From: Lyophyllum atratum
Taxonomy: Eukaryota; Basidiomycota; Agaricomycetes; Agaricales; Lyophyllaceae
NCBI GenBank assembly: GCA_014905825.1
Contig: JACGCN010000013.1
Coordinates: 1 to 64,000 of the forward strand
Reading direction: 5' to 3'
DNA length: 64,000 nt
A program made the position numbers and the translations under genes. The first letter of the stretch is position 1. Every line of letters starts with the position of its first letter. This document shows positions 20,961 through 43,666 of the stretch, one piece after another. Below the pieces are notes generated by a model. It was given only the letters and a program-made list of their open reading frames with translations. It made no database searches and was not told where the DNA came from.

Positions 20961-20980
20961 ACACCGCTGGCAGCGTCGCG

Positions 20981-21360
20981 TGTTTCTTGAGAAACACCGG
21001 CAAAGAAAAATGATTTAGCTCTTAGATTAATGTACATTTAGAAACAATTTAAATATATTTTGATAACCACTTAACAAACACGCAACCTGTTTTCTAAGTG
21101 GTCCTCGAAAAGCACAAAGCGTGTATCACGAATGTTTCTTAAGAAACACTTAGAAACCACCTCATGTGGTTTCTTTGTGTTTCTTGAAAAATATTTTGTA
21201 TTCATCGGAAGATGCACTGAACGAACTACTTAATATGTACTTTTTTGTGTTTCCCTATAAATAGTCATCGTGTTTCTGAAGAAACACGCAAAGAAACACG
21301 AAAGATGTTTCTAAAAATACAGTCATTTATAAATATCTTACCTGGTTCTTAAGAAAGACT
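20981..21360. promoter_or_regulatory. Subterminal palindromic motifs, left arm (putative transposase binding sites)
   Basis: Three copies of TGTTTCTNNAGAAACA occur at 20981-20996, 21133-21148 and 21271-21286. A related hairpin AGAAACCAC...GTGGTTTCT is at 21152-21174 and a shorter TTCTTAAGAA near 21343. The right arm has them at 43631-43646, 43479-43494 and 43341-43356. CACTA-type transposases are known to bind short subterminal repeats, so these are candidates. Confidence 0.6.
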
Positions 21361-21380
21361 TGAATATACACTCATCGTGC

Positions 21381-21401
21381 CGCTCATCGACTCGATGAGC
21401 G
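21381..21401. repeat. Perfect 10-bp stem hairpin in the arm
   Basis: CGCTCATCGA, one base, then TCGATGAGCG. The mirror copy lies at 43226-43246 in the right arm. Confidence 0.8.
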
Positions 21402-21521
21402 GGCGCTCTGTGTGTCGCTCAGCGACGAGCTGAAACTCGCAGGATAATAAAGGCGTCAGGTTGCGGAGTAAATGTAAATTGCACGAGTACATAGATACAG
21501 TAAGTAACGACCTTCACCCAC

Positions 21522-22262
21522 CCGATCTCATCCGCATCATAACTGTTCATCTCCCCCTTCCTCATCGTCAGCGTCTGCACCACCGATCCCGCGTACTCCT
21601 CCTTCATCAGCACCGTGCACTCCTCAATCGGCTCCAGCATCCTCCCTTTCGCCTCAGGGTCCGGATCGGGGATCATGACGGCCTTGGGCGCCCGACACCG
21701 AGCTGGAAGCCCTCGCGGCGGAGCGTTTCGAGGAGGACGCCGAGGTGCAGAACGCCGCGCCCGCGCAGCTCGAGGGACTCGGAGGTGGGGCCGGGGAGGA
21801 CGTGAGGGCGACGTTGGTTTCGGCTTCTTTGTAGATGCGTTCCCGGATGAGTTGTAAGGTTAGCTGGGTGCCTTCTTGGCCGGCGAGGGGAGATTCGTTG
21901 GCGTGCACGAATATGGAGATCGTGATTCGTAGGGGGGTCGATGGGTGTTGACTATAGTAGGAGTAGTTCGTTAGGGACCAACCGTTGCGCGAGAGGGGTA
22001 GGGAGAACTCACTGGTAGGGGTTAAGGCCCGTCTTCGCTCCATCCTTCGGGGTGGACGAGTGTCACGTTGACTCCGCCGTTCTTGATACCAGCGATGCTG
22101 ACGATTTCCTCTGCACCCGCCACATCCTTCTCCGTCCGATCCAACCCCTTCCGACCGTAGATCAGAGACCTAAATCCATGTCTCAAATGCGCTGGCTCCA
22201 GAACTCTATCGAAACGTGGACGAACTTCAGAGGACTTGATGGCGGTGACATGGATAGACTGA
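21522..22262 (-). pseudogene. Captured TypA/BipA GTPase fragment, left arm
   Basis: Read on the minus strand across three frames, the arm gives RKGLDRTEKDVAG...EEIVSIAGIKNGG, then VHANESPLAGQEGTQLT with EAETNVALT, then LELRGRGVLHLGVLLETLRR, then EPIEECTVLMKEEYAG. These occur in the order found in TypA/BipA translational GTPases (domain II end, domain III, start of domain V). The frame is broken at least three times, including a TAA after GWSEDGP and a shift after NVALT. An intron with GT-AG ends (21975-22010 region) seems retained, which points to capture from genomic DNA rather than through mRNA. It cannot make a working GTPase. Confidence 0.75.
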
Positions 22263-22342
22263 TCATAAGTAGGCGCTTGAGGCCTGTGCAGCGTGCTCGC
22301 CTCTCCCACACACTCACGTGATCCTGGCGTTGGGCCGCCTGG

Positions 22343-22372
22343 AAAGACGCTCAAAGACGCTCAAAGACGCTC
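22343..22372 (+). repeat. Triple decamer AAAGACGCTC at inner TIR end
   Basis: Three exact tandem copies at 22343, 22353 and 22363. The mirror array lies at 42255-42284. They mark the inner border of the arms. Confidence 0.9.
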
Positions 22373-22465
22373 ATTGTTCCCTCATTGTTTCGCGAAGTGA
22401 ATGTAATTGCGCGAGCACACATATATGCAGTAAGTACTCATGACTACAAGATCTGCGAGATTATA

Positions 22466-25400
22466 TCAGCGTGAGTAGAAAGCAACAAAGCATACAGAAC
22501 TTACACGAGATAACGAAATGACGACGACTACGTCTTTACCCTCTTCCCATTGAGGCAATGCACACTTGGCAAAGTGCACATCAACATCGGAGAGCCTCTT
22601 GACTTTAATCGCAGGATTGAGGCGACTGCTCCAAATTCGTGCTCTCAGATAGGGGTATTGCATGTACGGGTCGAAAGCGATGTTTGCAGACTCGTGAGGT
22701 CGTACAACAAGCCAAGTTCCTTGCAATTTAGGATCCAAAGGAGGACCTTTCGAGCGGTCCTTGGGTTCCGAGAACTCGATGATTTTCTGGATCGAGTAGG
22801 GAAGATGGTCGTTCCTGAAGAACACACCACTGTTTCCTTCGTGTTTTGTATATGTTGAATAAACAAATCCGTGCTTTCGAACGTAGCTCCCGTATTTGGC
22901 ACGATGCGGAATGGAAATCGAGGTCCCAAGGATCTGTTCAAAGGCAGCACGATGGTCCGAGTCAAGGTTTCGATCTGCCCCACGGAAGGCCTGGTCATCG
23001 TCATCCAAGTCCCAATCATCCGAGGCACCGTCGAGAGGCATGAGGGCGTCGGAAGCTAAGGAATTGCGGCCTTGCGGTCGTACCATATTTTCGAACACGC
23101 CTTGACGCATGCGAATTGCCTCCGGTGTAGTATCTTTACGGAATAACGCCCTAAAGTTGCAAGATTTATGCCAACTACGTCCGATGGTTTCCTCATATTC
23201 CCCTATCTTTGGGTAAGGGAGGGTAAAACAACTATAGAATTTTGACTTACCAGGTTTATAGTTGGTTGAAAGCCGCTGGAGCATGCCAATTGTTCGTTCA
23301 AATGGGAAAGTCCACCATCCATAAGTAGGGCCATACATTATTAGGAATTCTTGGATGTGCATCGCCATGTGGTGATTCGGATGAGGCTTGTACTCCGGAA
23401 AGATTCTCGTCAGCTCCCGACGATATTCGGTGATCAGCTTTAGATACTCCTCGGCATGGGCGGATGACGTCGTTCGGCTGGTAGCTACGGCGACGGCAGA
23501 AGAAAGGAGCATGGTAAGGTGAAGCAGTTCACGGCGTCTACCGGCAGAGTTCTGATCAACCTTAGACCACAGCCGGATCAACGTCACTGGGAGGTAAACA
23601 GATGATATGGTGCGCCACTGGTCCGACTTCAACTTTGGCCCCGAGGCCGCCAGAGTCGTCGTCACAGGGGAAACCCACGAGGGCTTGATTACTGACTTCA
23701 AATCGGCATCAAGTTCGGCCAACTCCTGCTTGGTGAGAACACAGCCGGCCAACAGCTCAAACGGATCAGGGTCATCCGGTAACTGTTGAAGGCGCTGTGC
23801 CCGTGGTTAATGGAGGATTCCAGAGAAATTGATAATTGAACATACCCATGCCATTATGAACGATGCGATATCTGACTTCGTATGTTTCCCCTCCGGTGGA
23901 GGTGGTGGAAGGCAAGCGACGCCGCGAGCGATGTAGGACAGAGATGCGACGTGCCCTAAGTTTGCAAGGGACTCGACAGCCTTCTCGAAGTTGTCACCTT
24001 TGGGATTGTCAAAGGTGAAAGGGCGATCAAGCCGGTTCAGAAGGCGCCTTAGCGAATCTAGTTCTGTCTCCTGTGTCGGGAGAGGATTGTCGGGGACTTT
24101 GAGGGCGGCAATTCTCTTTTTTACCCGTATCTCTGTCCCTGACTGTGCCCTCGGGTTGGATTCAATACCGAGGATGCCGTGAACGTGCTCCTTGACAATG
24201 CCCAAGAAGAGGCAATGCATAGGATCGACCACCAAGAAGTTAGATGGCTCGTAGTAGGGAAGCCTTAAGAATTCAGAAATGCGAATTCCCGTGGAAGAGG
24301 CGGAGCTATCTGCATTCTCCTTAGTGGCGGCCGTCACGTATCGATCCGAGTATTTACGATGCTCGTCCGTTGTGCGCCAACGCCAAGAGCCATAATCATA
24401 ATTCCATAGGCCCTGCTTTTCCAGATTGAACCAGCAGCGAGAGCAGCAATACTTTTGAGTCGCTCCAGTAAACCCCCCGATCTTCCGTGCTCCGAGGAGA
24501 TCACAGATGACAAGGATGATCGCACAAAGTACGAGTCGCCCGCCCTCGTGCATGGAGGTTCGATCAAAAGACACCCCGTTCCAAAGCTCCAGGAATGTGT
24601 CAACGAGAGGCGCAAGGTACGTGCTGATACGATCGAGAGGAGGATCCTTGGGGCCTGGAGTGACCTGGATAAACTGATTTTCGGGTTTGTTGCGCTCCTC
24701 GATGGGCAGGTTGAGGCAGGATACCGCTATCATGCCAATCGATGGCCTTTTCCCATTTGCCATGATCCGGAGTGGATTGAAGGAGTCAAAGGCAAGGGCG
24801 AAAAGATAGCGACCCGCGGTTTTGCCTCCACACAGACTGAAATGTGTCTTCTTGTCTGGTCCCATAAATTCTCGAACAACGGATCCCTCGAAAACATCCC
24901 GCAAAATCCCATCACTCGGCACCTTCATCCTCTCCCATCCCTTGTCCATCATTTTCTCGCATGTTCGTCGTGAAAGCAATCCCGCCAGCCAATCTTTGAA
25001 GTCGAAAACAACGTATTCCTTGATTGGAACATAGATGGTATAGGTCGTGGAGGGCTTGGGGGTTCGAACGATGATGGACTTGGGACGAACGAGCAGTTCC
25101 CCACAAGTATTACCGCGGCGTTTAAAATTGCATCGGTTTGGATAGCAAGGCACATTGTCCTTTACGAGGTCCGGAAGATGTAGAGCATAGCAGCTTGGGC
25201 AGACAGCATATACTTGTGTCTTCCCTTCGAGATTAAATACGTCCGTGGCTGTGCGGATATCCCGGGGAAAAGACGCGAAGAATTGTCCAAAATACCAGGG
25301 AATTTGATCATTACATGCCGCCATGACAACAGTTTGTATGAGGAACTCGCACATGGAGAACAACCAATGGCTTCCACGGCGGGGAAGGCGGAATATCAGG

Positions 25401-26179
25401 CTGCATGCGACAATCATGAAAAAAACCAGCTGCAGGAAGGGGGGTATATTGGCAAGGATGGGCCGGAAATGACGGGCTTAATATGACGAACAATTAGATA
25501 CAAGAAAATGGGTGGGCTTTAAACACTTACCAGTCGCATACGTAGTAATACCAGCCGCTTCATGCGCCTTGCGCTCTGTAGCCCTAGCGGTTAATACCGC
25601 TTCCCAGAGTTTCTGTACACTGAGAATGGTCCCCGAGAGTTTCTGGAGATCCTGATAGGTCTCTTGACGTAGGACAACAACGGCGGGGGTTTTTACACGG
25701 TGCGCAACATATGCAAGGTCCCTTTCCAACGTGGCACTGGCTTTCCTGATCGTGCTGAGCCGGCCAAGAACGTCCTCGGCTGAGGTGTCGCTTGCTACAG
25801 ATGGGGTTCCAATACCATTGACGTCGAGTTTAAGGCGCGCAATGGAATCCTTAATCTTGCTAATGGTGTGAACCGAGCGGATTGCCCGATCGATCGAATA
25901 TTGATCAACGCCCTTCAAGGACTTTTCCGCGCCGGGTAACGAAGAAGGATCGGCCCCGCTGGCGTCAAGCTTCGTGAGAGCCTTCTCGAGTTTGGCGTGG
26001 TGGGCAGCGAGAGCCTTCTGTTGTGCAGCCTCCGCCATGGCACGCATCTCGACGTTCCTTTGATCTTGCCGATGGCGTTGAAGGGCCGCTGAATCCACCA
26101 TCGCACCCCTTTCCCCACCCATATATTTCTTATCACATCCGTGGACAGTACACACGCATCGACGTGTTTTAACACCCAT
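22466..26179 (-). CDS. Tnp2-domain DNA transposase (CACTA/Plavaka type), possibly frameshifted
   Basis: Exon 1 (26179-25531) starts MGVKTRRCVCTVHGCDKKYM, a Cys-rich zinc-finger-like head, and continues as a charged coiled-coil region. Exon 2 (25429-23846) carries VYAVCPSCYALH, CSRCWFNLEKQGLW and the Tnp2 signature DPMHCLFLGIVKEHVHGILG. After a phase-0 intron (23795-23845), exon 3 continues RLQQLPDDPDPFELLAGCVL. It later has HPNHHMAMHIQEFLIMYGPT and WWTFPFERTIGMLQRL, both classic for basidiomycete Tnp2 proteins; a further intron is at 23203-23250. The natural splice from exon 1 to exon 2 enters the wrong frame and needs a one-base shift near 25370-25392, so the copy may be inactive. Catalytic acidic residues cannot be assigned by eye. 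Confidence 0.85.
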
Positions 26180-26466
26180 GCTGCACGAAGTCAGCTAAGC
26201 TCTTAGCGCATGGGAGACACGCACCTTCGGTGACACTCAAGGGGAGCAACTGGGGGAGGGCTTTAGTGTTTCTGAGGATGTTACAGGAGCGTAGGATAAT
26301 CTCGTATCGATATTTCTGATCCTTGTCGTCTTGCTCAATCATGTGATAAGGAAATCCATATGCACATCAAATTCAGAACATCATGTATGATGTTCTCGTT
26401 CTAGGTCACAAGGCCTGCATAACAGTACATGGTAGCGAGAAAAATCCGGATTTTCCGGGGAACTAT

Positions 26467-27585
26467 TTAGACCAAATTGATAAGTTCGTTCCAGCCCACA
26501 ATGGTGACAGGCTTAGGACATGTCTCATACACCACTCGACACAAAGGGCAATGATTATTCACCCTCCACCATCGCCGAAAGCAACGGTTACAAAAGGTGT
26601 GTCCGCAATAATCGAGGCTGAGGGTGTTGTTGGGCACGCTCAAGAAAGAAAGGCGGTAGACACTTACAGAATCATGCGCCCTTTCTTGCTCCAACAGATC
26701 GTGCATGTGACAAAGTTCCGTATGCCTTGTTCTAACTATTGCGGGTGTCAGCGACGAGGTTAGAGAAGGAGGGCTGGTAACGTACACGATCAATCGCCTG
26801 GCTTTGATGTTGTGCGTGCGCCTGATGCGCCGTGAGCTGCGCCTGATGCGCCGTGAGCTGTGCCCGAGCAGTGTGTTGCAGCATGTCACATTTCTATTAC
26901 CTATGTCAACTATGAAAGTATAAAGAACGGTGGGAAGCTAACCCGGTGTGCTGATGCCAGGCTTTCTTTGAGTTCGTCGTTATCCATCTTGGACAAGCGC
27001 AGGGCCTCCACCATGCCAGCCACATCAACAAGCAAATTGTTTGCTTCCTGTTAAGCGAATAGATGAGTTAAATGCCGCATAATGGTGAGCAAACTGACCT
27101 GCGATTGCTGAAAGAAGATGTCATAGAGTTTCGCTTTCTCGATCTCAATCTCGTCCACCTTCTGGATAAGAGACCGCCGCTCCTGAAGAGGCGCATGAAG
27201 TGGCGTCAATAATGAATGACTTGACCCACCTTCCCTCCATCCGACGCCTCCTTCTCGAGTGCCTGCTTGGTTGCCACTACTTGCAGAAGCTCGTCCCTGA
27301 GTTCCTTGATCTCCTTGTTGAGTAAGAAGCATGTCATTATCAACGAAGTCGGTGTAGACTTTGAATGGGTTGCTCACATCCTGGACGGCCTGCAGTGTTG
27401 CACGTTGAGCTAGTTCGTCATCAAACGAGTTCCTAAATTTTGCTATTTCCTAGCCGAAGGTAATTTCAGTACACCATCAAGCTACTAAGAGACGGGGCGC
27501 ATACCTTGTTAAGATCTGCCAAGGTCGGTGCTCGAAAATCATGCTGAGGCTTTGGGCGAGGTGTATGGGTTTTCCGGGACCCCAT
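26467..27585 (-). CDS. RING-finger protein with N-terminal coiled coil
   Basis: Starts at ATG 27585 (MGSRKTHTPRPKPQ). Short exons then join in frame as coiled coil: EIKELRDELLQVVATKQALE, ERRSLIQKVDEIEIEKAKLY and MVEALRLSKMDNDELKESL. A heptad repeat AQLTAHQ follows. The last two exons, spliced over an intron of 50 nt near 26608-26657, give CTICWSKKGRMI and CGHTFCNRCF with NNHCPLC, a complete C3HC4 RING (C-x2-C-x12-C-x-H-x2-C-x2-C-x10-C-x2-C). RING proteins usually act as E3 ubiquitin ligases. It lies inside the mobile element, between transposase and WD40 gene, on the same strand. The RING is invisible without splicing because its first Cys pair is in another frame. Exact exon ends in the middle are approximate. 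Confidence 0.75.
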
Positions 27586-27685
27586 GGGTTTTCCGGGACC
27601 CCTTCGAATATAAAGAGGTTCGTGGAAAGGTGGGAGGACAAGGAAGACGAAGAGGTTCGTGGAAAGGTGCGAGAACAAGGAAGAC
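27565..27685. repeat. Two short direct repeats over the RING-gene start
   Basis: TGGGTTTTCCGGGACCCC occurs twice side by side (27565-27601). It is followed by two ~34-bp copies of AGGTTCGTGGAAAGGTG...ACAAGGAAGACGA (27616-27685). The first copy pair covers the proposed start codon, so the RING gene's N-terminus may have been altered by this duplication. Confidence 0.7.
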
Positions 27686-27941
27686 GAGACTCCGTCTCTC
27701 CGCTTCAACTACTCGCCTTCTGAAATCTTGACGAAGAACACGAGCCAAAAGAAAGCCAAACACGGTATATTTGCATGCATAGTGTAGCGTACGTAGACGA
27801 ATGGAAATTGAACGTGAACGGTATGGAACGAAAAACAAAGATTCGAGAAAGGGAGGAGGGAAAACATGACGTAGAAGATCTAATCTGATCTGCGTGTCGT
27901 GATGTCGTGATCATGACCTGAAGGTGGGCGTTCTCACCCTA

Positions 27942-27957
27942 CCCTAACCCTAACCCC
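27942..27957 (+). repeat. Short telomere-like CCCTAA tract
   Basis: CCCTAACCCTAACCCC, two and a half telomeric units, directly downstream of the WD40 gene. Too short to call an old telomere; may be chance. Confidence 0.4.
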
Positions 27958-27971
27958 ACAGACTACAGGAG

Positions 27972-30033
27972 CTAGATGACTCTGGTGACGACGTCTACAA
28001 GTGAAACAGGGGCGGGGGCCTCCGTGGAGGTGGCGCTGGTTGCAGTGGGATGGAAGGGGGTGACTGTGCTAAGCTGTCCTTCCCGTATTTGTGGTGCGAT
28101 CATGGAACTACCCATGACCGTATGGACAACAGTGATGGTTGAAGTTAGCGTCTCACGATCCACCGTGATAAGGGATTTAGTGATAGTGCTTGGGTCTTCC
28201 ATGAGCTGTGTAGTCTCCATGGAGGTGGCGCGGTTTGCAGTGGAATGGAACGGTATAACTTCGATGAGCTCTCCTTCCGACAACTGCGGTGAAACCACAG
28301 AACTCCCGATGACCGTGTGGACAATAGTGACAGTTGAAGTTGCGCCTGGACCTCCCACGAGCTGTGTAGGCGGCTCCAAGTTGCTTGCGCCCGCCACGCG
28401 TTGCACGCCACGTATGACGGCAGTACTGGTTACAGATACACCCTGAGCGAATAATAAGCTCTGGAAGGGAGGAAAGCAGAAACAAAAAGATCGACCTTCC
28501 AGATTGGTAGTACCCAGTTGGGAGAAGATACAATTACCAGGAGTATCCCGAACATGACGTTGATGATGCCTTGTTTGCTGATCCCCATAGAACCATTAGG
28601 TGGGGACGGGACTAATCCGCCGACAGGCTGAGGGATAACAGGTGGGGCCTAGAATAATCAGCACAATTATGCGTGCAATGAGGTTCCACGTACCTTTTTC
28701 CAGAGATAAATAGCAGGCATGGCGTCACTTGAACCCCCCGCGACGAAATGAACTGCGCCACCAGTTGTCGCAGCAGCAACAGTCTGGATCAAGTGAAAGT
28801 CTTCTGTGTATTCAGATCCCGATATAGCACGCGTAGGTACGGAAGACTCACCCGTTCTCAGCTTGAGGGACTCCATACTCTCGCCCGTCACAATATCAAC
28901 GATGTGGACGGTACCGTTATCACTCCCGCATATTCCGATTCGCCCATCCTCGCCAAAGGCGCACTGTTTCGTAAAGTGCCGCGTGGACTTGGGTGCGAAG
29001 GATGTCAGTGGGGTACTGGCAGGGAAGCGATATATATCGAAACAGCCTGTTGACAGGTTGTCGACGAGCAGAGTCTTCTCGTCAGGGGATAGGACGGCGT
29101 TCCCACTAAACAACTTTAGCCGTCGCCGAGAGAGGGAGAGTTCATTAGGTCACTTACATTCCACCAGGAAGAGTCTTTGCCCAGCGCACCTCGGACGTTT
29201 GTGCGTCTCGACATGACCTATGGTTGTCATTTAGGCTGGCTCCAAACAAAATCGGCCCCACTTACATCTGGCCGGTCTCGAGGGCATGAATCAAGAGGTT
29301 TTCCTTGCCCTCGCCGAAAAAGGTTACACCCCTAGGGATGCCTTGTGCCACCTCCGCCGTCCAAATCCTCGTCAGTTGAACTAGCGGAAAATCAGTCAAA
29401 TGGCCATTGCTACAGTTCAAAAAGCAACTCACCTCGGTCACGCACGTCATATAAATGGATAGTCCCAGCGTGACTGGCGACAACGAGCCGCCGATTTAAA
29501 GGATCGAATGCCTGACATTCGATCCCATCGTTGCACTCGAATGGGGCAATGGTATTAGCTTCTTTCACTTGGAACCACTTGAACAATATCAGCAAAGACC
29601 TAGACATGATTGGGAGCGTCGACATACGTGGCTATTCTTGGACTTTGGATAAATGCTAAGGTAGCCCCTACCGGTACCAACACACAGAGAGAACCCCTCT
29701 TCGTCTACGGGTGGCTTGAAGTGGAGGAATGTCAGGGCAGTGACTTGTCCCCATTGGGGATCGTGAAGAACTTGTTCGCGCTGCAAGGTCTCTGTATTCC
29801 AGACTGTGACGCATCCGTCGTCACCTATGGAGAACGCCGTGAGACCTCAATACCAGAAAGCGAGGAGAGAGAACCCACCACCACCAAAGAGGAGAGCTCC
29901 GTCATGAGAGAACACAAGCGCATTCATAGCGCCATTGGCGCCTTTCAGCTCACCGGCCAACTCGTACTTAGTTGCCTACAGAAAGGTTAGACCAAGCATA
30001 GCTCCTGACAAAAGAATGTCTTACAGTCGTCAT
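27972..30033 (-). CDS. WD40-repeat protein with C-terminal membrane anchor
   Basis: About ten exons join in phase from ATG 30033. WD-type blades are visible: MNALVFSHDGALLFGGGDDG followed by CVTVWNTETLQ, then LVVASHAGTIHLYDV, GNAVLSPDEKTLLVDNLSTG and IGICGSDNGTVHIVDIVTGE, ending at AIYLWKK. After a Pro-rich linker (APPVIPQPVGGLVPSPPNG) comes one hydrophobic segment (IINVMFGILLGVSVTSTAVI). The tail holds two ~50-residue repeats of the form TSTVTIVHTVIGSSVVSPQ and TSTITVVHTVMGSSMIAPQ. I know such WD40 proteins with one membrane segment as common in agaricomycetes. Here the gene lies inside a transposable element, on the transposase strand. A scaffold role is likely; the partner is unknown. Confidence 0.8.
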
Positions 30034-32614
30034 ATTCCCTTTGTTGTGGTGCTAGGATCGCTGAGTAGTCGCTGCGGTGTCTTCGAGGTGAGACGATCAG
30101 GATGAAAGGGGCGGGGTTTTATATATCTTCCGTTCGGAGTTAGTTAGTCCTCGTGGTCACTGAAAACAAAGGATGCTTACCTCATACTTTTGGATGTCCA
30201 AGATCAAGTCACGACGGAAAGGAGGGCGACATGATATAAGACAGACACACGAAGGAGGATGAATGCCCGCTACTTTGCTACAACAAGTACTTCATGCGTC
30301 TTTACATCCAGCACCATCTTCCGCACGTGACGAACCGAGTTGAGTTCCAAGTTGCACCTCCCCCGGCCCTTCCATCCATTACGACACGGACCGAGTTCAC
30401 TACCGAACGTCTGGCCTATTCGGACAAAGAGGAACCTTTCCTTGCACCGGCTGGGAGAGACAGGGCGAGTCCTACCCCGCCAGACGCAGATGGGAGCGGT
30501 TCAGGACCACGTGGCCCCAGACTCAGGCGGGGATGCAATCAAATACCAAAGCCGGCGGGGGAGCCGGGAAGGCCAAACTCAGGAGGTTTCTGTGTGGAAG
30601 CCGCACTCCTAGCTGAAGGTTGGTCCAAGCAGTCTGCTCAGGAGCTCCGGGTGCGTGATTTGTCGATTTCCCTCCAGCCCACCGCTCATTGCAGGATAGG
30701 AGGCCGTTCGGACTGCGGCTCAGGACCAGCTGGACTTGAAGGTCAGCTATAAAAGCCAACATAAACCGACTTTAAGAAAGATCTGTGCTGAGGTGCGTGC
30801 CACATTGCGAGTAATGTTTGTGGTGTTGAACTTCGGGCATAGATGATGGGGGAGAAGCGATGGCCAGTTTTGAAGAACTACGCTGGCTGCTGGCCGGTTC
30901 ACAGTATGCTGAAATTGGCCCTCAAGTATTTCTCAGAGGCCGCGCGCCGCAACGACTACAAGGAGAGCAGTCAACGACTTCGCGCGGCGCTTAGGGGTGA
31001 GAGTCCTCCGGCGGCCTCGACTTGAAGAGTGTACGAAGACTTAGACTTTGGATCGTAGAATGTAGCTCTATCACTACATAGGGAGAACCATGTGCATATT
31101 TCGGAACAAGGAACACCAGCTCATCCGAACATCATCGCAGCTGAGCAACTGTAGTTGAATACTCTAGTCAGCGAAGCTCGATCACGGCGCATCCCTTGAT
31201 TCCGAAGAAGTCGATGTATCTTGCTGGTATTGAATGAGAACAGAGATGTACGAGGAGGTCATGATCAACTCACTGTAGATATCAAAGAGGTGCAAGAGCG
31301 GAACTGTCAGAAACGACGGTAAAGCAGCCACTGGGGGACGGCACCCTGCGTGAACTATGATGTAGGGATAGATGAGACAAATTCCTCGTAGTAAAGAATT
31401 GTTTGAGTACAACGAATGTCGAGAGGAGAGAGTATCCTCCGTTGCGGGGCACGATATGTTGCTCCCTACAACACTGCTGGCCAGTAAACAGCATATTCAA
31501 GTTGGATATATCGTTCGGGCAAGGAAACCGCCAGGTAGCAAGAGGAGAGATATGATAGAAGTTGTAGGCGTTGTAGATGTAGTTATGGGGCGAAATTTCA
31601 CTCTCAGGGTAAACCCAGCAGACGTGAGTATAGTTTGGGCTGGCCCAAGTCTATACATGAAGGCAAAGTAGCATGGGCAAGCCCAGAGCTACACAACGTA
31701 ACACGGAGAGGTGATGGGCTAAAATCTGGAACGACGAGGAGAGGGGAGGGGATGACGGTGGAGAGATGGAAGGGAATGAGGGGGAGAGAGGGCCGAAGTG
31801 GGCGAGGATTGTTGAGGTGGGCGGGGGTTAAGTCGGGCGAGGGCTGGAGGGAGTGAAAATTTAAAAAGTCAATTAAGAGGTGCAACGGGACTGAATGCGT
31901 TGGCAACTCACCTGCTGACCTGTACCCTGCAGCATAGACATTGCGAACCTAGTAAGGTAAGAGGGAGTCAGAACCTGAAGCTAGAGAACGACTTCTTTTA
32001 CTTACCTGAGACGGGTGGACGCATCCTCTCCACGATTTGGGTGGTGAGCGGAGGCCCGGGTCACCGGTCACCTAGAGGCTAGCAACCACGGATTTGGCAT
32101 GTCGGACTAGGTCGGACTTAGCAGAAAAAAGGTCGAGGCCGAAAAAGGTCGAGGCCGGTCTATTTGGCCTACAAGCAACTGACTAAGCATAGCCGTTGAA
32201 GCAACTTTTTCGTCAAGTCCATCGTGCCCTCGCCGAGTATCTCAGCGACCTTCTCATTTCACACTACCTGTAGTCATGGGGCCACCCAGGCGTACACACA
32301 ACATCCTTTTCCTCTGAAGTTCAGGGCGTGCCCGACTTCCTTGTTTTCTCCTGGTTGCAAACCGAGAAACATATCCACTCTCTGACCACACCTGAGTACT
32401 TGGGCATTCGCTGCCCTCATTCTACGCTATTAGTCTCTAATACCTTTCTGGCTGTCTTCTACTGCACCAACGTCACCTTTTTTTTTACCCAACAATCCAA
32501 TATTTCCGACACTAGTGGCCGCGCTGCCGTTGCTGTACCCACCCAGAGCCATACCTCATCCTCCAGCCACTTCGGGGGGAAATCTCCTTTTCGTCACGTT
32601 CATATATCTGCGCC
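30034..32614. other. Central divergent spacer of the element, with a purine-rich tract
   Basis: 2.6 kb between the leftward and the rightward gene blocks of the element; promoters of both blocks probably lie here. At 31690-31860 the plus strand is strongly purine-rich (GAGGAGAGGGGAGGGG, GGGGGAGAGAGGG). A frame at 30294-30752 has odd composition and no domain. I see no other gene. Confidence 0.5.
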
Positions 32615-35373
32615 ATGCATCAACAGTGAGTTTCCCCTGTTCTTCTTGCTCGTTAGGTCCAACTAACATCTTACACGCAGTCCGCGGCCATTGAACGAGC
32701 GGCTGAACGTACCCTACTCATTCGACAAGACACGGGGCAGAGTCATTGTCCTCAATGGGGACTTTTATTACTCCCCAAATTCTTCGCGCCAAGTTGACTT
32801 GCCCCCTCCCGATCCATATCAGGGCACAATACATAATATATTCGACTGCAAGGATGCTCGAGCAGAGATCTATCATCAGCCTCGGTGGTGGACACGGTCA
32901 TTCGGATGGGTTGCATTCGTGCCCATACAACCTTCCTATACCGGTGCTCTCTTCAATCGCCTGTCCCACGTCCCGACTTATCTCCATGCGTACTCGAATA
33001 TTGATATTACCGACGGATTCTCTCTACCCGAGGATACAAAAGCAGGCTGGATGCGACTGGAGGCCGCTCTTGCGTCTGCCACATCTCTGGTTACAAAGGA
33101 ATATACTCTAGCCGCCATTCGTCCCTTTTCGCCCTGGGCTGTGGGTTATGCCAAGACGCGAAAAAGCTATCACAGCGCCGTAGCTCATGCCCGGAGATCC
33201 CGCGACTGGTTCTCAGTTTGGATGGGCCTGTTCTCCTACCTAATCGCCGAGGCTGAATCCGCCAATCAGTATTCGTTCCAAAAGGCCTGGCTGGACGTCC
33301 TTTTGAATCATGACTTCGATCAGAATTGGATCGACTCCGTCATGTCTTCAACGATCTATGATTTCACCTCTCCCAACTCGCGGGCTGGTACCTTTATCCG
33401 ATTGACAGGACAGGACATTGATCCAACTCAACCTCCAGTTACATGGTTCTGTCACTACAACGTACCTGTATGGTACAGATGGGGCCAGCATGAGGCAATC
33501 ACTGCAGACGACATATTAAAACCTTTGGAGTATCAAATGCAGGAAGCCACAACGTGGCTGACCATGCAACCCGCAAGTCTCCTCCCGTCTGATGTACATG
33601 GTCCCCGGTCTGGTAATTCACCACCTGAAGACGCAGATCCGCCTAGAGCATACATAGCATGGTTTGCTGACCGTGATGAACGTAACAAAAAGCGTGTTCT
33701 CACGGAGACTTCAGCCCAGCGCCAGACCCGTCTCAACCGGGAACGACAACCGCCGACGACAAGTGCAAAAGTCTTTATATGGGAATCCAGCGATTCAGAT
33801 CCTAAAGTTTGGGTTCGCGTGCCTGTGCTCAGAGCTGATAGAGAAGACACCTTAGAAGAATACGCGGGCACTCAATCCCGTTACGATTCTTTTTCTAACG
33901 AATGGGACTGCTGCTACGAATTTGGGCCTGGCGCTGATGATGAAGACGAGGATAATCACCGCTTTCTAGCTGGCCATGAGGATTTCGATGATCACGAGCT
34001 CGATGATCCATCCCAGCAACCTGCCCCCCCCTACATCGATCTCCCCTGCCCTCGAGTGCTTACTCCTCCTCCCCAGCCAGCCCAAAATTCCGATGCACAG
34101 AGCTTGCACATTCCACGCTTTCATCCTATTCACCTCAACACTGCTGCAGTGCAAGAGGGCTCGACACGCAGCTTATCCCAAAGCTCCAAAGCTGACGCGC
34201 TGCAACAGGAAATGTTGGAGGTACTGCACCTACATTATGGTTTCACTCCACCTCTGCCTCTTCCCAATGCTGTCCCTGCTGTCCTCAGCGAAAACGAATA
34301 CAAGAAGATGATCCGTGTCTTGGGCCTTCAATGGAGCGACGTTAAGGACCTTATTGTTGCCCTTCCCATCATCCCCTTGGTCAAGGCATATTTGGATGGG
34401 ATAATAGGCAACTTGCGACCTGCTGACAATAGATGTGACTTCAATCTCCGGAGTCGTACATCTCTTGCGTCATCGTCGCGTCTGAGGTTCCTAAGGATCG
34501 TCCATTCGGCTGACGAAAGCGCCCGGCCTCTGTACATGTTTGATTTCCAGGTATACTCGGTGGCTCCCTGGAAGTTGACGCTCACAACCGCAGCCAATGC
34601 CCTTTTGGTTTGCAGGCTTGATCAAAGTCTCGATGAATACGGGGTCGCGCGCTACCTTCTGGAACACGGAGTCCCGTTCCATACCTTGCTTTCGTCAGAG
34701 CTTGTGGACCGGGGTCCTCGTGAGCCTCCCCCTCCCTGTGTTCTTCCTGTTCGCCTGTCGAAGGCACAGTTCTCGGGCAAAGATTATGATGCGTATGTCA
34801 GTCATCGTTCAGATATCGTGAGGCAACCCCGGGCTCGCGCAGCTCTGCTTAAAGGTGGTTACACGTGGAGGTTATTCATCATGACTGTCAGTTTCGATAC
34901 CGTTTTGAATGGACCGACCGGTTGGAATCCTCTTCCTGGTACCATGTTCGTTGCTCGGGACCAAAAAACAAATGAAACCTTTGTGGACGACAGCTTGACG
35001 GAGGTCGAGTTGAACCTGATTTCCGGTGCATATACATGTCTTACTGGTGAATATTTCTTCTGCGAGTTGATTTATATCTGCTCATTTTTCTTAAGGCATA
35101 CAGAATCAAACGTCGACTCGCTCTTGGTACCCATTGGCCTCCACCTTTGAAGCAGCTGGTGAAAACTACGGCTATTGGAACCCCTATACCGAGAAAGTAT
35201 TCTGGAGGCGGCTGGATGAAATTAATAATTCAGACCGTGCTGCAGATTCCAGGGGACCCTTGACAGCTGGGAAATGGCGAGATCTTTTGCGTGGATCGAA
35301 GGAAGTGCGTCGGTGTAAGGACAATGTTGAGCGTTGGTCAGAGGCCTTCATTACGCAGCACACCAATGCTTAA
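32615..35373 (+). CDS. 884-aa protein of unknown function, element cargo
   Basis: Three exons join in frame: 32615-32625, 32681-35046 and 35096-35373. The start MHQ plus a split His codon supplies the ATG that the long frame lacks. Conserved-looking blocks: RPRPL-like head, RWWTRSFGWVAFVPIQPSY (residues ~75), PPVTWFCHYNVPVWYRWGQH (~260), and AKVFIWESSDSD with ANEWDCCYEF-type sequence (~390). An acidic stretch and a C-terminal YGYWNPYTEKVFWRRLDE follow. I know proteins with VPVWYRWG as frequent hypothetical proteins in agaricomycete genomes but cannot name a function; no catalytic motif stands out. Being inside the arms and intact, it is likely a normal part of this element class. It faces away from the transposase block. 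Confidence 0.8.
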
Positions 35374-35613: not shown

Positions 35614-36082
35614 CTACTTTCTTACAGCAAAGTCGGCAAGCCGAGCGTCTCTCGATCGCAGTCCGACGAACTCATGAACGACGCCCTTCCTCATAATGAC
35701 AATGTCGCCCTTCCAGCCCTGACCTACGCCCCATCTGGCGATGATTCGGTTCCTTGGGAGATGGCAGTGGTTTTTGACAAAAATGTGAAAGCGAGTCAAT
35801 TGCCCGCGACGAGGTTGGATGGCTATGACGCCATCATGTATGAAGGGCTGTAGCTTTTGCCCTCCGAAGGTGGTCTCCAGACACGGCCGTCGACCACGGT
35901 CATTGACAAGGACATGCAGACGCTTAAAGACGCCGCTACGTTTGCGGGAACTAGCACCGTAGTAGCGGCCATGGAAAGGGCGGCTTTTATCCTGTAAACA
36001 ACATGAGCAGGTCTTTGAGCAATGCATCGGAATGGCGACTTACGAGCGTCGTGGGAGTGAATTTCAAAAGTGCGGACACCAT
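35614..36082 (-). CDS. Small basic protein of unknown function, element cargo
   Basis: Two exons join in phase 0: 36082-36044 (MVSALLKFTPTTL) and 35991-35614, giving 138 aa. The protein is basic and rich in Arg, His and Val (SRPFHGRYYGASSRKRSG, DRGRRPCLETTFGGQKL, TRFHIFVKNHCHLPRNRII, GWKGDIVIMRKGVVHEFVGL). The spacing of strands suggests a small beta-barrel, but I do not recognise it. It is the only minus-strand gene in the right half of the element. A GTAAGA donor close to the stop would allow an alternative end. Both neighbours are plus-strand genes, so it shares its upstream region (36083-36332) with the coiled-coil gene. Confidence 0.6.
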
Positions 36083-36332
36083 AACAAGAAATCAGTCGAC
36101 AGGGGTGGTGAGAGTCCGAGAGCGATGAGCGATGAGCGTCAAGAGAGCGTCTAGCGAAGGAAGGAATCAACTCCCTTTCCTTTCTTTTATATGCTGATGT
36201 CACATCGCGGCTTGCACAAAGGGACGGAGTTCAGACTTGCATCACCACGCTGCTACGCCCTATCCCTTACACTCATCTCCCCTCTTGCCTAACTCTACCA
36301 ATTGCTCAACTTCCTTTCCAGTACTACTCAGC

Positions 36333-39300
36333 ATGTTGAACGACAAGTCCAGAGCGCCAGATATCGAGATGTCCGAGGCAGCATCCGTGGTTTGTCTGAG
36401 AGTTATTCGGTTATCGAAGCTAGCTAACATAGAACAGTCTACAGTTGCTGATCCTCCGGTAGCCCGTAGGACTATCCCTGGTGCCTTCCTTTCGGATACT
36501 ATTTTCGACTGCGATTCTCCGGCTCCAAAGGACTCATCCTTTTCTCCTCTGCCCGTCCACCGACCCGGTCCTGTGTACAATCGAGTGGCAACATCGAGGT
36601 TGGCCGTCGATCCTCCTAGTGATGTAAGTTTCTCCAATCTCAAAGCCCTCATTCGATCTAATAGGTCATATAACTAGACAAAGAAGCGTCGAAGGGACGA
36701 TGGAGATCTTGAGGACCCAAAGGTATACATTCAAAGAACACGCTATCTTATCACGATATTTACATCTCATGTTTATCAGTCACGCGATGAAATGATACGG
36801 TCACTAAATCGGGCGCTCCAGAAAGCTGAGACAGAGTTCGAATCGGTCACTCTCAAGCTCCAGGCGTCCAAGCAGGTGTGCTCGACATCGTACACTGCTC
36901 TAATGCTGATACTGATCGCCTTCCACCGTTCAGTCACAAATATCTCTCGAGAATAAACATTCGGAATCTATCAAGGAGCTCGAGGGCAAATTGCGGGACA
37001 CTAAGCAGGCTCTGGAGGACCAGGTCAACTATATTCGGCGGCTCTTTGAGAACATGAGTCTTAAAGACGGGGCTCCTCCTGAAACAAACTCTTTCGACCC
37101 CATAACCGCCACCGTGGAGCTCCAAACCCGTATAGATCATCTTCAAGAACGCGCGAGAATGGCGGAAGGCAGAGAAAAGGCATTGCTGTATCAGGTGGAA
37201 TCGATGACAAGCGAGGCGCGCGAAAGGAAGGTCGAAGCGGACAAAACGACGCACGACGCGGCCAGGCAGAAGGAGGCACTGCACAACGTCAGAGACCAAC
37301 TTATAGCTCTCAAGGCCGAGCACTCCGAAGCCTGTGATCGTTTCGAGGAAAAGCTTGCCTCGGTAGAGGGTGCGCTTCAGGCGACGAAGGCCAAACTCTC
37401 CGAGGTCGAGGGTGGACACGCCGAGATAAAAACAGCGTATGAGAACGTCGAGGACATGTATGAAGCAGCCTGCACCGAGTTGATGGGGTATAAATCGCGA
37501 TATCAGCATGTGGAGCCTTCGAGGAAAGAGTATGAGGTTGTTCAAGTAAGTTGACGGCGAGATATAAAGTACCTCTACTAATGAACATCCAGGAAAAGCT
37601 TGACCATACGAAAGCGGCGCTGATGGAATCCACAAAGGTGTGACGCCCGTTGGGACTGGTAGTGCCTTCTTCTGATGCCTAATTCTTTGCAGGAGGCCGG
37701 AGACCTCAAATCTCGAATCAAAGAGATCGAACACAGTGCGCGCGAGGAAGCAGAACGTCTTAGGAGCGAGATCCAGCGAGGCAAGAACGAGTTAGAAGAA
37801 GAAAGAGGCAAACTCGTCGAGGAGGCGAAGACTCATGGAGGTCTTGCCCTCGAGAAGCTTCAGAGCACCCATCAGGCGCAGGCGGTACGTTGATTTACAT
37901 TCCGAATGGTACCCTCCGCTTACGCCCGCATCAGGCCAGACTTTCCAACGCTGTGAAAACTGCTCAGACTGAAGCGCAACGCGTGACGACGGTAATGAAT
38001 GACTTAAACCCAGAGTGCGTCATCTGACGTCCTGTCAATATAGGAACTCCAAGAACTACAAGCAAAGTTCGAGCAGGAGAAGCTTGACGCCGTCGCAACT
38101 TCGACCGCTACACTTCAGGAAATCCACAAAGCAGCGCAAGTAAGTTGTTTTCTTTAGCACGAAGAATCTATTTGATGGGCGATACATAGGAAAAAGTGGA
38201 GGGGAACCTCAACGTGACTCAGACGGCCTTAACACGGTCCTCGGAGGTAAGATCCTCCCTCAGTCGCGAGGAAGTCGTCTAACATTCCGGTTCACCCAGG
38301 AGGTCGTCACGCTCAAGGCACAGATATCGACCCTCGAATCAAATGCGCAAGATGCCGTCACCCGTCTCCAGCAAGACTTGAAGAATGCCCAGCGCGATGC
38401 GGAGCAGACACGCACGAGGCTTACTGAAGAGGCGAATAGCCGGGAAGCTCTCGAGAAGGTTCAAAGCACCCATCAAGCGGAGACGGTACGTTGATTTACA
38501 TACCAAATAGTACCCTCCGCTTACTCCCGCATCAGGCCAGACTTAACGAGGCTGTGAAGACCGCTCAAACTGAAGCGCAACGCGTGACGACGGTAATGAA
38601 TGACTTGAACCCAGAGTGCGTCATCTGACGTCTTGTCAATGTAGGAACTCCAAGAACTGCAAGCAAAGATTGAGAAGGAGAAGGACACCGTCGCAACGTC
38701 AACCGCTGCACTTCAAGAAAGTCACAACGCAGCGCAAGTAAGTTGTTTTCTTCAGCACGAAGAATCTATTTGATGGGCGATACATAGGAAAAAGTCGAGG
38801 GGGACCTCAATGTGACTCAGACGGCCTTAACACAGTCCTCGGAGGTAAGATCCTCCCTCAGTTGCGAGGAAGTCGTCTAACATTCCGGTTCACCCAGGAG
38901 ATCGTCACGCTCAAGGCACAGATATCGACCCTCGAATCAAATGCGCAAGATGCCGTCACCCGTCTCCAGCAAGACTTAGAGAACGCCCAGCGCGATGCGG
39001 AGCAGACACGCACGAGGCTTACTGAAGAGGCGAATAGCCGGGAAGCTCTCGAGAAGGTTCAAAGCACCCATCAAGCGGAGACGGTACGTTGATTTACATA
39101 CCGTATGGTACCCTCCGCTTACGCCCGCATCAGGCCAGACTTAACGAGGCTGTGAAGACCGCTCAAACTGAAGCGCAACGCGTGACGACGGTAATGAATG
39201 ACTTAGACCCGGAGTGCGTCATCTGACGTCTTGTAAATGTAGGAACTCCAAAAACTACAAGCAAAGGTTGAGCAGGAGAAGCTTGACGTCGTCGCAACTT

Positions 39301-42033
39301 CGACCGCTACACTTCAGGAAATCCACAAAGCAGCGCAAGTAAGTTGTTTTCTTTAGCACGAAGAATCTATTTGACGGGCGATACATAGGAAAAAGTCGAG
39401 GGGAACCTCAACATGACTCAGACGGCCTTAACACGGTCCTCGGAGGTAAGATCCTCCCTCAGTCGCGAGGAAGTCGTCTAACATTCCGGTTCACCCAGGA
39501 GGTCGTCACGCTCAAGGCACAGATATCGACCCTCGAATCAAATGCGCAAGATGCCGTCACCCGTCTCCAGCAAGACTTGAAGAATGCCCAGCGCGACGCG
39601 GAGCAGACACGCACGAGGCTTACTGAAGAGGCGAATAGCCGGGAAGCTCTCGAGAAGGTTCAAAGCACCCATCAAGCGGAGACGGTACGTTGATTCAGAT
39701 ACCGTATGGTACCCTCCGCTTACGCCCGCATCAGGCCAAACTTAACGAGGCTGTGAATACCGCTCAAACTGAAGCACAACGTGTGACGACGGTAATGAAT
39801 GACTTGAACCCAGAGTGCGTCATCTGACGTCTTGTAAATGTAGGAACTCCGAGAACTACAGGCAAAGGTCGAAAAGGAGAAAATTCAACTTGAGGCAACA
39901 TATACGACCAATCTCCAACAAACCCATCAAGCAATTCAAGTAGGTCCATTGGCAATCGTTTACCATATCACTCTGACTGCTGCTCAAGGAGAAACTCAAG
40001 GCAGATCATGAGGAGACCCAAAAGAAGTTGGCCAGAGCAACTGCGGTGAGATATCCCACCTCTATTGGGAAATTTACATCTGACTCCTGGATGACCGCAG
40101 GAGATTGAGGGTCTGACATCTCGTATACAAGAACTGGAGTGCCGTGCCTCGGATGGTAACGACGGAGATGTTGAAATGGACGACGCAGGAGCAGCCAGCT
40201 CTCCACGTCGACAGAGACCACTCCACCTTTTGGTTAGCATTCCGCACTTGAATTGTTGTATAAGCTCATCGGTGTTCACGTTCCAGACAAGTAACGCGAC
40301 AAGGTACCGTGGGTCAAAGAGGCCCGAGTCGCTCCTCGAAGGCCTAAGGGAGACCTCCGTCGTTCCTGAACGCTCCGTCGGGCAGAGTGGAAATCCTAGG
40401 TCGACCCCTCTTCCAACTTCACCAGGCCGCCCATTCACAACTTTACCAAATCCGGGTCTATTTGGTTCCTCTCCTCTCTCATCACCAACGACTGCGATGG
40501 CACACTCCTCGCTTTATAATAACTTCATGAACTTCCCCTCTTCACCTTCTCGCGCTTCTTCCATTCGTCTTTCACCACCTCCTGCCGCTTCTTCCAGTCG
40601 TCTTTCACCACCGCCTGCCGCTTCTTCCAGTCCCAGTCATCTTTCACCAAATCCAGCTGCAATGGCAGACTCCCTGCTTCACAATAATTTCCTTAATTTC
40701 CCCCCCCCTTCACCTCCTGTCGCTTCTTCGAGTCGTCGTCCGCAAAGCACCTCGGGTTATCGTCAAATTGCTCCTCCAGGCTACGCGCAGTCTCGAGCCC
40801 GCGGGTCAGGCTCGAAACAAACGACCCGAGGCCGTCAGCTAGGTCCCCGTCCGACTCCGCCTCCCCGCACCCCTGCGCCCGAGCCCGGTGCGTCTGGAAG
40901 CAACCATCCACCAGTCTCCAACTTTGGTCGTGCAGACGGCGCCCCCGAGCCCAATGCTCAGACCGCGGGCGACGCTATATTAATGGAACTCCTTCGAGAA
41001 GTTCGAGACATGCGTTCTGACGTCGATGAAGTCATGGGATCATCCTCTCGCAAAACGGCCAAAAAATCGACCCATAGGAGCACTGGGAACTTCCTAGTAC
41101 CCGCAAAGAAGAGACCACGTTCTGCAGAACGTGTATTCTTGACAAACACAATTCATGCCCGCCTTGACCTGATGCTGCATATAAAGGACGACAAGGACAT
41201 CGCGAAAGTTGCCATGGAAGTTGTCGTTACCCGTGAAACCTTGGAGAAGTTCGAGGAGGGCACTATCGAGATTCCACCCCTAGAACCACTGCAGGTGAAC
41301 CTTGACGACCTAAAACATCCTTGGAACGAAGAACTGTCAGATGTATTCACGGATGACTTTCTCGCGGAAAACCCAGAGCTTAGCCACAGACGGCCAGAGG
41401 TCAAAGTGCACTTCCACGCTCGATTAAGAGCCCTCAGGACCGCACTTCTCAAGCATTGCAGACGCGAAGGCGAGCAGCCAGAGGATGTCTTTGGTCGGAT
41501 GGAGAGGGAATACCAAGCAAATAAGCAGATCAGAAGAGTTCTGAGACGACAAGACGCGGTAGGTCCGCATGTCTGTAGAATGGATCGATACTGACCTTTA
41601 CTCGTAGCTGCGCTCAGATAGGATCAAGATATGCGAGCAACAGGCCCGGGACGGTGACGCAACATGGACGCAGCTCTTCGCAATCATGGAAGAGCTTCCA
41701 TCCAACGGTCATAGCTCGGACGAATCGGGTAACGAGGGTGGGAAGACCTATGCCGTCAGAGTGAAACAATGGCGCAGTGACGAAATCACCAAGATCGTGC
41801 AATATGTCGATAAACATCGAATCACGACCAACGCTTATGGAAACGCTCTTCCCGGTAATCACAGCCGCAACCGCGTTCGTCACACGTACCCACCTCTCAG
41901 TAAAGTGGAAGCATGCGCTCAGCTTCCCTTGAACTTCTATAACGCAGCATGGTGGGGTGCATTGAGAAGGAGCGAGACGAGGAACTTGGAGTCGAAACCA
42001 GACATGGTTTTGCCCAAGGTTCCGGATCTTTAG
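36333..42033 (+). CDS. Coiled-coil protein with repeated exon cassette and C-terminal conserved domain
   Basis: ATG at 36333 (MLNDKSRAPDIEMSEAAS); more than twenty short exons follow. Most of the protein (36790-40190) is predicted coiled coil (for example LRDTKQALEDQVNYIRRLFE, SRIKEIEHSAREEAERLRSE). Between 37885 and 39850 a cassette of four phase-0 exons is repeated. Then comes a Ser/Pro-rich region with the repeat RLSPPPAASSS and a basic nuclear-localisation-like KKRPRSAER. The conserved C-terminus includes TIHARLDLMLHIKDDKDIAK, HPWNEELSDVFTDDFL, CRREGEQPEDVFGRM and, in the last exon, LPLNFYNAAWWGAL. The final intron is about 41559-41607. A nuclear, filament-like or scaffold protein is likely; its role in transposition is unknown. 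Confidence 0.7.
37885..39850 (+). repeat. Tandem array of a ~600-bp four-exon cassette
   Basis: The junction GTACGTTGATT recurs at 37885, 38486, 39084 and 39685, giving periods of 601, 598 and 601 bp. Each unit holds four exons of 19, about 32, 19 and about 62 codons (ARLNEAVKTAQTEAQRVTT; ELQELQAKFEQEK...; EKVEGNLNVTQTALTRSSE; EVVTLKAQISTLESNAQ...) and their introns, all phase 0, so copy number can change without breaking the frame. The copies are nearly identical, introns included; the exon before the array is a diverged version of the fourth exon. Confidence 0.9.
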
Positions 42034-42235
42034 ACTTCACTTCACTCTATGCCTATATTTCTACCCTTTACGTTCACGAGCATCCGGTGACATCCGGCGA
42101 TTTGCAATTAGATATAATGTATTGTACGCCACAATATTACAACCACATCGCTCCTCCAGTTTACAGTGGGATGGGTGTTAGATCAATAACCTCAAATACC
42201 ACGTTACCCTGCGAGAACCTTGGGCATCGTGTGAG

Positions 42236-43666
42236 GAACCAATGAGGGAACGATGAGCGTCTTTGAGCGTCTTTGAGCGTCTTTCCAGGCGGCCCAACGC
42301 CAGGATCACGTGAGTGTGTGGGAGAGGCGAGCACGCTGCACAGGCCTCAAGCGCCTACTTATGATCAGTCTATCCATGTCACCGCCATCAAGTCCTCTGA
42401 AGTTCGTCCACGTTTCGATAGAGTTCTGGAGCCAGCGCATTTGAGACATGGATTTAGGTCTCTGATCTACGGTCGGAAGGGGTTGGATCGGACGGAGAAG
42501 GATGTGGCGGGTGCAGAGGAAATCGTCAGCATCGCTGGTATCAAGAACGGCGGAGTCAACGCGACACTCGTCCACCCCGAAGGATGGAGCGAAGACGGGC
42601 CTTAACCCCTACCAGTGAGTTCTCCCTACCCCTCTCGCGCAACGGTTGGTCCCTAACGAACTACTCCTACTATAGTCAACACCCATCGACCCCCCTACGA
42701 ATCACGATCTCCATATTCGTGCACGCCAACGAATCTCCCCTCGCCGGCCAAGAAGGCACCCAGCTAACCTTACAACTCATCCGGGAACGCATCTACAAAG
42801 AAGCCGAAACCAACGTCGCCCTCACGTCCTCCCCGGCCCCACCTCCGAGTCCCTCGAGCTGCGCGGGCGCGGCGTTCTGCACCTCGGCGTCCTCCTCGAA
42901 ACGCTCCGCCGCGAGGGCTTCCAGCTCGGCGTCGGGCGCCCAAGGCCGTCATGATCCCCGATCCGGACCCTGAGGCGAAAGGGAGGATGCTGGAGCCGAT
43001 TGAGGAGTGCACGGTGCTGATGAAGGAGGAGTACGCGGGATCGGTGGTGCAGACGCTGACGATGAGGAAGGGGGAGATGAACAGTTATGATGCGGATGAG
43101 ATCGGGTGGGTGAAGGTCGTTACTTACTGTATCTATGTACTCGTGCAATTTACATTTACTCCGCAACCTGACGCCTTTATTATCCTGCGAGTTTCAGCTC
43201 GTCGCTGAGCGACACACAGAGCGCCCGCTCATCGAGTCGATGAGCGGCACGATGAGTGTATATTCAAGTCTTTCTTAAGAACCAGGTAAGATATTTATAA
43301 ATGACTGTATTTTTAGAAACATCTTTCGTGTTTCTTTGCGTGTTTCTTCAGAAACACGATGACTATTTATAGGGAAACACAAAAAAGTACATATTAAGTA
43401 GTTCGTTCAGTGCATCTTCCGATGAATACAAAATATTTTTCAAGAAACACAAAGAAACCACATGAGGTGGTTTCTAAGTGTTTCTTAAGAAACATTCGTG
43501 ATACACGCTTTGTGCTTTTCGAGGACCACTTAGAAAACAGGTTGCGTGTTTGTTAAGTGGTTATCAAAATATATTTAAATTGTTTCTAAATGTACACTAA
43601 TCTAAGAGCTAAATCATTTTTCTTTGCCGGTGTTTCTCAAGAAACACGCGACGCTGCCAGCGGTGT
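42236..43666 (-). repeat. Right terminal inverted repeat (1431 bp)
   Basis: Reverse complement of 20961-22391 with the same length. Its outer end (43666) is 145 bp from the stop codon of the first hydrophobin gene (43811). Confidence 0.95.
42365..43105 (+). pseudogene. Captured TypA/BipA GTPase fragment, right arm
   Basis: Same fragment as in the left arm, read on the plus strand with the same breaks. Because the two copies share every indel and stop, the damage came before the arms were duplicated or was homogenised between them. Confidence 0.75.

Follow-up and report, generated by a model that had tools for sequence, protein, structure and literature searches.

We analysed a window of 64,000 nucleotides, the whole stretch at positions 1 to 64,000 of contig JACGCN010000013.1 (C35 below) of the mushroom Lyophyllum atratum (assembly GCA_014905825.1). 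Within it lies a unit of 22,704 bp, bounded by two long inverted arms and containing a Tnp2-type transposase gene together with five further genes. This unit is very probably a giant DNA transposon of the CACTA/EnSpm type, apparently mobile in the recent past, whose five further genes belong to its own long-conserved core. Its features are given below in window positions. The limits of all element genes are approximate.

20959..20961, no strand: left target-site duplication TGA, which is single at the empty counterpart on C116
20962..43665, no strand: the whole element, 22,704 bp, with ends CACCGCTGGCAGCG..CGCTGCCAGCGGTG, based on four insertions and four empty counterparts
20962..22391, plus strand: left inverted arm, 1,430 bp, from self-comparison
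20981..21358, no strand: six left subterminal palindromes TGTTTCTNNAGAAACA, three exact and three with 2 mismatches
21505..22163, minus strand: fragment, in the left arm, of a host gene that we take to be a TypA/BipA-like GTPase gene, 89-90% identical to C73:192130 and C62:116114
22466..26179, minus strand: Tnp2-type DDE transposase gene (PF02992), three open stretches in one frame with probable introns between them
26467..26937, minus strand: RING-finger gene (PF13923, PF13639 and PF00097 above cut-off), with further exons possible up to 27449
27972..28595, minus strand: Ser/Thr-rich open frame overlapping the end of the WD40-like gene, an open frame only and possibly the tail of the WD40-like protein (unconfirmed)
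28493..29984, minus strand: WD40-like gene; close to its 3' end (28493-28579) it encodes a hydrophobic segment that is conserved
30000..32666, no strand: central spacer between the divergent blocks, lying between conserved frames, limits approximate
32667..35373, plus strand: gene of an 884-amino-acid (884-aa) protein, 99% identical to P0001, with relatives in C72, C2, C13 and C93
35617..36039, minus strand: small conserved gene with a 141-aa open frame, 52-55% identical in C2, C93, C72 and C13
36678..42033, plus strand: coiled-coil gene, start uncertain, with a conserved C-terminal domain at about 40944-42033 (P0080; counterpart in C72)
37846..39881, plus strand: direct repeats of about 600 bp inside the coiled-coil gene
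42236..43665, minus strand: right inverted arm, 1,430 bp, from self-comparison
42464..43122, plus strand: the same presumed TypA/BipA-like fragment, in the right arm
43269..43646, no strand: six right subterminal palindromes, the mirror set
43666..43668, no strand: right target-site duplication TGA, from comparison with the empty counterpart

The gene content agrees largely with what an earlier note had proposed from the letters of the window. The Tnp2 domain PF02992 scored above its cut-off in a Pfam scan (33.5 bits against 28.6, E 3.1e-8), and tnp2 was the sole Pfam match of the catalytic stretch. The transposase positions D, D, CxxC and E are kept in a diverged element on contig C72, and D, D and CxxC also in P0079; a protein-database search with the transposase returned one relative only. 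The neighbouring gene is a RING gene by three Pfam models. The WD40-like gene, previously described as encoding an anchored WD40 protein, stood in part: its Pfam WD40 matches fell below cut-off, while its exons are collinear with those of C72 (31-58% identical) and the hydrophobic segment is conserved there. The protein of 884 aa exists in the annotation, as the 827-aa open frame at 32667-35150 matches P0001 of L. atratum at 99% over 96% of the query, an entry listed in the protein database as a hypothetical protein. An AlphaFold2 model of the 884-aa protein is confident (predicted local distance difference test 86.9, predicted template modelling score 0.87) and found no match in the PDB. The coiled-coil gene is likewise real in its conserved C-terminus. 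Its repeats of about 600 bp seem to cover an exon and an intron, and the C72 counterpart also bears repeated coiled-coil units. The arrangement of the genes as two outward-facing blocks holds for those listed earlier; the right block contains, in addition, the small minus-strand gene at 35617-36039, which had been missed.

The arms had been described as mirror images free of indels, at 20961-22391 and 42236-43666. These intervals are indeed reverse complements without an indel, and the mirror is imperfect, with agreement at 1426 of 1431 positions and five mismatches. The outermost base on each side (A/T) belongs to the flank, so that each end moves one base inward; we set the ends at 20962 and 43665 because other copies and empty sites fix them there. 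The element thus begins with CACCG and finishes with CGGTG, that is, with 5'-CAC..GTG-3' termini. With at most 2 mismatches allowed, the window contains 12 matches to the palindrome TGTTTCTNNAGAAACA against 0.33 expected, and all 12 fall inside the outer 400 bp of the arms. Genome-wide, the exact palindrome occupies 26 places, each of them in an arm of the 22.7-kb element family, against 1 place for a reversed control pattern.

A search of the 64.8-Mb assembly with the left arm gave 16 matches, ten of which are accounted for by four insertions: that of the window, those on C92 and C75, and one that is split between C1 and C52. The others comprise the host gene (two matches, C73 and C62), the C72 element (two) and two short, weak matches (C65 and C1:4391864). 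Since four insertions of the 22.7-kb unit exist in the genome, a chance origin of the arm pair is excluded. The four assembled copies (C35, C92, C1 and C75) are 99.76-99.91% identical at aligned bases. Among them, 80 two-state positions vary, 62 by transition and 18 by transversion. The C1 copy, though in part a chimera, is counted in these figures; the partial C52 copy and the first 61 bases of C75 are excluded. Contig C1 stops 229 bp past its right arm, within flanking sequence that it shares with C75 (C1:4671926-4672155). Because this flank is found there and small indels are concentrated in the final 4 kb of the contig, the right end of C1 is likely an assembly chimera carrying the flank of the C75 insertion. 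A 249-bp segment present in the other three assembled copies is missing from the window copy at position 27536, which may reflect either a loss here or a gain in the others.

Two copies bear insertions of their own. A 646-bp insertion in C92 has AACGTATT at both borders and ends TAGTG..CACTA; presumably it is a small hAT-type element. A 14.2-kb insertion in the left arm of the C75 copy (C75:1277766-1291930) has TTAA at its borders and ends TGGGGACT..AGTCCCCA.

For all four insertions, an empty counterpart was found on another contig, with the flanks joined around a single copy of the 3-bp duplication: TGA on C116 for the window, CCA on C69, CCA on C65 and AAT on C101. In the case of the split insertion, the C52 flank and the C1 left flank meet at a single point of C65, with CCA common to both. 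Left flanks of 2 kb are 98% (C92), 97% (C1) and 93% (C75) identical to the empty contigs. We infer that the contigs with empty sites represent the other haplotype, i.e., the other nucleus of a dikaryon. The same observations bear on whether one mobile unit could be mimicked by several transposons nested in each other or by a segmental duplication. Nested insertions do occur in the copies (646 bp in C92 and 14.2 kb in C75), yet the exact ends common to the copies, the 3-bp duplications and the clean empty counterparts are not what such an origin would leave; the empty sites already contradict it, and we give it next to no credence.

Diverged loci carry the same genes. The element on C72 (398016-423750) is 25.7 kb long, with 604-bp arms that are 95.2% alike, CACTTG ends and a CTA duplication. 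Its genes follow one another as Tnp2, RING-like (two weak matches), WD40, the member of the 884-aa family, the small gene and the coiled-coil C-terminus, with strands unchanged from the window; the search output shows stops within some of the frames. From the terminus inward, the arms of C72 can be aligned with the outer portion of the window arm, and they contain comparable TTTCTCGAGAAA palindromes. All six genes are also found on C2, again with the order and strands of the window, and with about 28 kb between the WD40 and 884-aa genes, where there is probably a nested insertion. Parts of the set occur on C13, C67 and C93: C13 showed no Tnp2 or RING match, C67 holds the left three genes and C93 the right three. 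Two diverged members of the 884-aa family, P0002 and P0004, share 54% identity and are 52-57% identical to the window protein; P0004 comes from a contig equal in length to C72 (770,440 bp), and P0002 from one of 364,809 bp, probably C93. A giant gene-bearing Tnp2 transposon was what the earlier note had envisaged, and it had asked for empty sites and for further loci sharing the arms and the gene set as support. Both kinds of support now exist, in the four insertions of the unit, in C72 and C2 with their six genes, and in empty sites on other contigs of the same assembly.

Divergence between the window and C72 was measured for Tnp2, the 884-aa gene, WD40 and the coiled-coil C-terminus. The nonsynonymous divergence (dN), calculated from gapless tblastx blocks that were found and picked by similarity, which lowers it, reached 0.36 for Tnp2 (531 codons), 0.34 for the 884-aa gene (561) and 0.40 for WD40 (265). 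The proportion of synonymous differences (pS) was 0.74-0.78, near or beyond saturation. Such near-equal values for Tnp2, the 884-aa gene and WD40 are as expected if these sequences travelled together for long under purifying selection. Because the diverged loci keep the five further genes in place, and because these three genes appear to evolve at an equal pace under purifying selection, we assign the five to the core of the element. They had been regarded as cargo; their presence stands, and they are better read as a conserved core.

The distribution of these gene families in the genome, for which only the best candidates were scored by each search, bears on the notion of Pack-type cargo, in which a set of host genes was recently taken up between the ends of an otherwise ordinary CACTA transposon. 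Capture does happen here, as the host gene fragment in both arms attests. Yet the same gene order recurs in loci with synonymous sites near saturation, and all 24 RING/WD40 matches (from 37 scored candidates) and all 10 small-gene matches (from 11) fall within the element family, C72 or the C2/C13/C67/C93 loci. We consider a recent capture highly improbable. A different proposal would make the element a carrier of host-useful genes, as Starships are, with RING and WD40 serving the fungus. The genes are conserved and under purifying selection, as this would require, but their conservation tracks the element lineage, and the matching contig lacks the insertion in all four cases; we find this reading unlikely.

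Two further gene families reach beyond these loci. The coiled-coil C-terminus gave 13 matches, with one weak match outside element loci (C110, 33% over 84 aa). The 884-aa family gave 31, many of them elsewhere (C71, C130, C86, C78, C88, C69, C97, C125 and others). In the protein database it has 78 members at E 1e-3 or better, some of which bear the Pfam accession PF28437. The closest named relatives outside L. atratum come from Tephrocybe, Arthromyces and Termitomyces, which we take to be Lyophyllaceae. Weak Tnp2 matches (31% at C88 and 35% at C69) lie about 21 and 34 kb from distant 884-aa relatives (C88:341197-364271 and C69:129769-165025), and these loci may represent more ancient elements of this kind. 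Other distant relatives (26-29%) have open frames of about 790-950 aa and sit no more than about 22 kb from the contig start (C2:10206-12653, C11:21878, C75:13363, C41:5129 and C125:17642), perhaps as a subtelomeric family.

Clustered subterminal repeats are a feature of CACTA/EnSpm elements, and they are present here. The same group is defined by a Tnp2-type DDE transposase, CAC..GTG ends and a 3-bp duplication (PMC12730594, in part), all of which occur in the window element, the duplication in all four insertions and in C72. As tested by ends, duplication, transposase family and subterminal repeats rather than by a transposase tree, the element files under CACTA/EnSpm and not under Plavaka. 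The earlier note had compared it with both; the CACTA half of that comparison agrees with the ends and the duplication. Plavaka is a related mushroom transposase group of the same wider group, with transposases that resemble EnSpm and sometimes an extra gene such as TET/JBP (PMC12730594, in part). According to the same account, Plavaka ends are TGT..ACA or CATCA..TGATG, against CACCG..CGGTG here, and duplications are of 2 or 3 bp, so that the 3-bp duplication fits both and does not discriminate. The Pfam family differs too, given that the catalytic stretch matches tnp2 alone, and no TET/JBP match was found in the element open reading frames given to Pfam. A Plavaka assignment is very unlikely. 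KDZ elements likewise differ in their duplications, of 7 bp (Kyakuja) or 8 bp (Zisupton), from the 3 bp seen here (PMC12730594, in part).

Other giant or many-gene elements offer points of comparison. Starships are also giant fungal elements with many genes, but they use a tyrosine recombinase (available text of PMC13066641), whereas a DDE transposase, long arms and a 3-bp duplication mark the window element. Only part of its frames was given to Pfam, and among these there was no tyrosine recombinase match, nor any match to a polymerase, integrase, ATPase or capsid of the Polinton/Maverick kind. Polintons/Mavericks are large, with long inverted ends and several core genes, including a protein-primed polymerase B and an integrase. 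CACTA elements usually consist of a transposase and at most one helper. One or two open reading frames are called 'usual' for such elements in PMC6431247 (in part). Among fungal members, CNIRT6 of Cryptococcus (CACTA/EnSpm, CMC group) measures about 7.5 kb with 24-bp inverted ends (PMC12810828, in part), in contrast to 22.7 kb, 1,430-bp arms and five further conserved genes here. Enlarged En/Spm elements of 16-20 kb with 4-5 open reading frames are known from the red alga Chondrus crispus (cited in PMC6431247, in part); they belong to a different lineage, and the likeness is one of size and number of open reading frames. A repeat library of the mushroom Marasmius oreades contains large unnamed elements of up to about 42 kb, likened to ours by size alone (PMC9674265, in part). 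Because these large algal and mushroom elements precede it, we file the window element within the known CACTA/EnSpm kind. Among the titles and abstract openings listed by literature searches, none describes a giant CACTA element or this six-gene set in mushrooms; supplements, Repbase and most subscription journals were outside their scope, so that an earlier description is possible.

Several observations weigh against a recently mobile element with an old six-gene core. Its mobility is deduced from sequence comparison and not from observed transposition, and the empty contigs are presumed to represent the other haplotype. The left flank of the window matches C116 at 99% over 201 bp only and at 76-78% beyond, the right flank at 88% over 1.4 kb, and the C52 flank is 81% identical. 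The assembly breaks one insertion into the left part of C1 and C52, so that its empty site depends on these two pieces belonging together, and the copy on C1 is in part a chimera. Other copies have interrupted genes: the 646-bp insertion in C92 falls in the transposase gene (window 25009), and 4 bp are inserted into the 884-aa frame of C75. As for the core, C2, C13, C67 and C93 were compared by their genes, and they may not all be separate insertions. RING matches between Tnp2 and WD40 in C2, C67 and C72 are weak (33-41%), as any two RING domains might be. The dN figures come from chosen blocks, mostly the longer ones (Tnp2 6 of 11, 884-aa 4 of 8, WD40 4 of 8 and coiled-coil end 2 of 6), and the coiled-coil C-terminus, at 0.76 (115 codons), evolves about twice as fast. 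Relatives of the 884-aa protein at C71, C130 and C86 have no listed Tnp2 match nearby, and the family is for this reason wider than the 22.7-kb element. The roles of the accessory genes are putative.

With discrete ends, palindromes, 3-bp duplications, multiple sites, empty counterparts and conserved catalytic positions, the element permits a conjectural account of its movement. Most likely, the Tnp2 DDE transposase would recognise two signals, the CACCG termini and the palindromes grouped within the outermost 400 bp of each arm. The 22.7-kb unit, if autonomous, would then be cut out and pasted with a 3-bp stagger. TnpA of plant CACTA elements is an end-binding, oligomerising partner of this kind of reaction, and by likeness the coiled-coil protein may play that part. 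The RING and WD40 proteins might tune the ubiquitin or silencing responses of the host. The long arms may have arisen by inward extension and homogenisation of the end regions, as is suggested by the 659-bp host gene fragment that sits in both arms, 89-90% identical to the gene on C73 and C62. Capture at one end followed by copying to the other would best explain its presence in both.

Taken further, these data could point to a distinct old lineage of giant autonomous mushroom DNA transposons with a six-gene core around Tnp2. In such a lineage, the 884-aa protein, which has no recognised relative of solved structure, the product of the small reversed gene and the coiled-coil, RING and anchored WD40-like proteins would be needed together for the element's movement or protection, making up a transposition system of several proteins and not a transposase with passengers. 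We hold this broader view tentatively, at a little less than even confidence. The five extra genes resemble long-established components of the element more than acquired cargo.

Genes of such elements can be annotated as ordinary mushroom genes, as the hypothetical protein P0001 warns. The host gene fragment present in both arms may provide a clean case for the origin of very long inverted arms. Taken with the empty sites on matching contigs, the maintenance of six genes across deeply diverged loci of one genome suggests the existence in mushrooms of a multi-gene transposon system, the accessory proteins of which merit direct testing.

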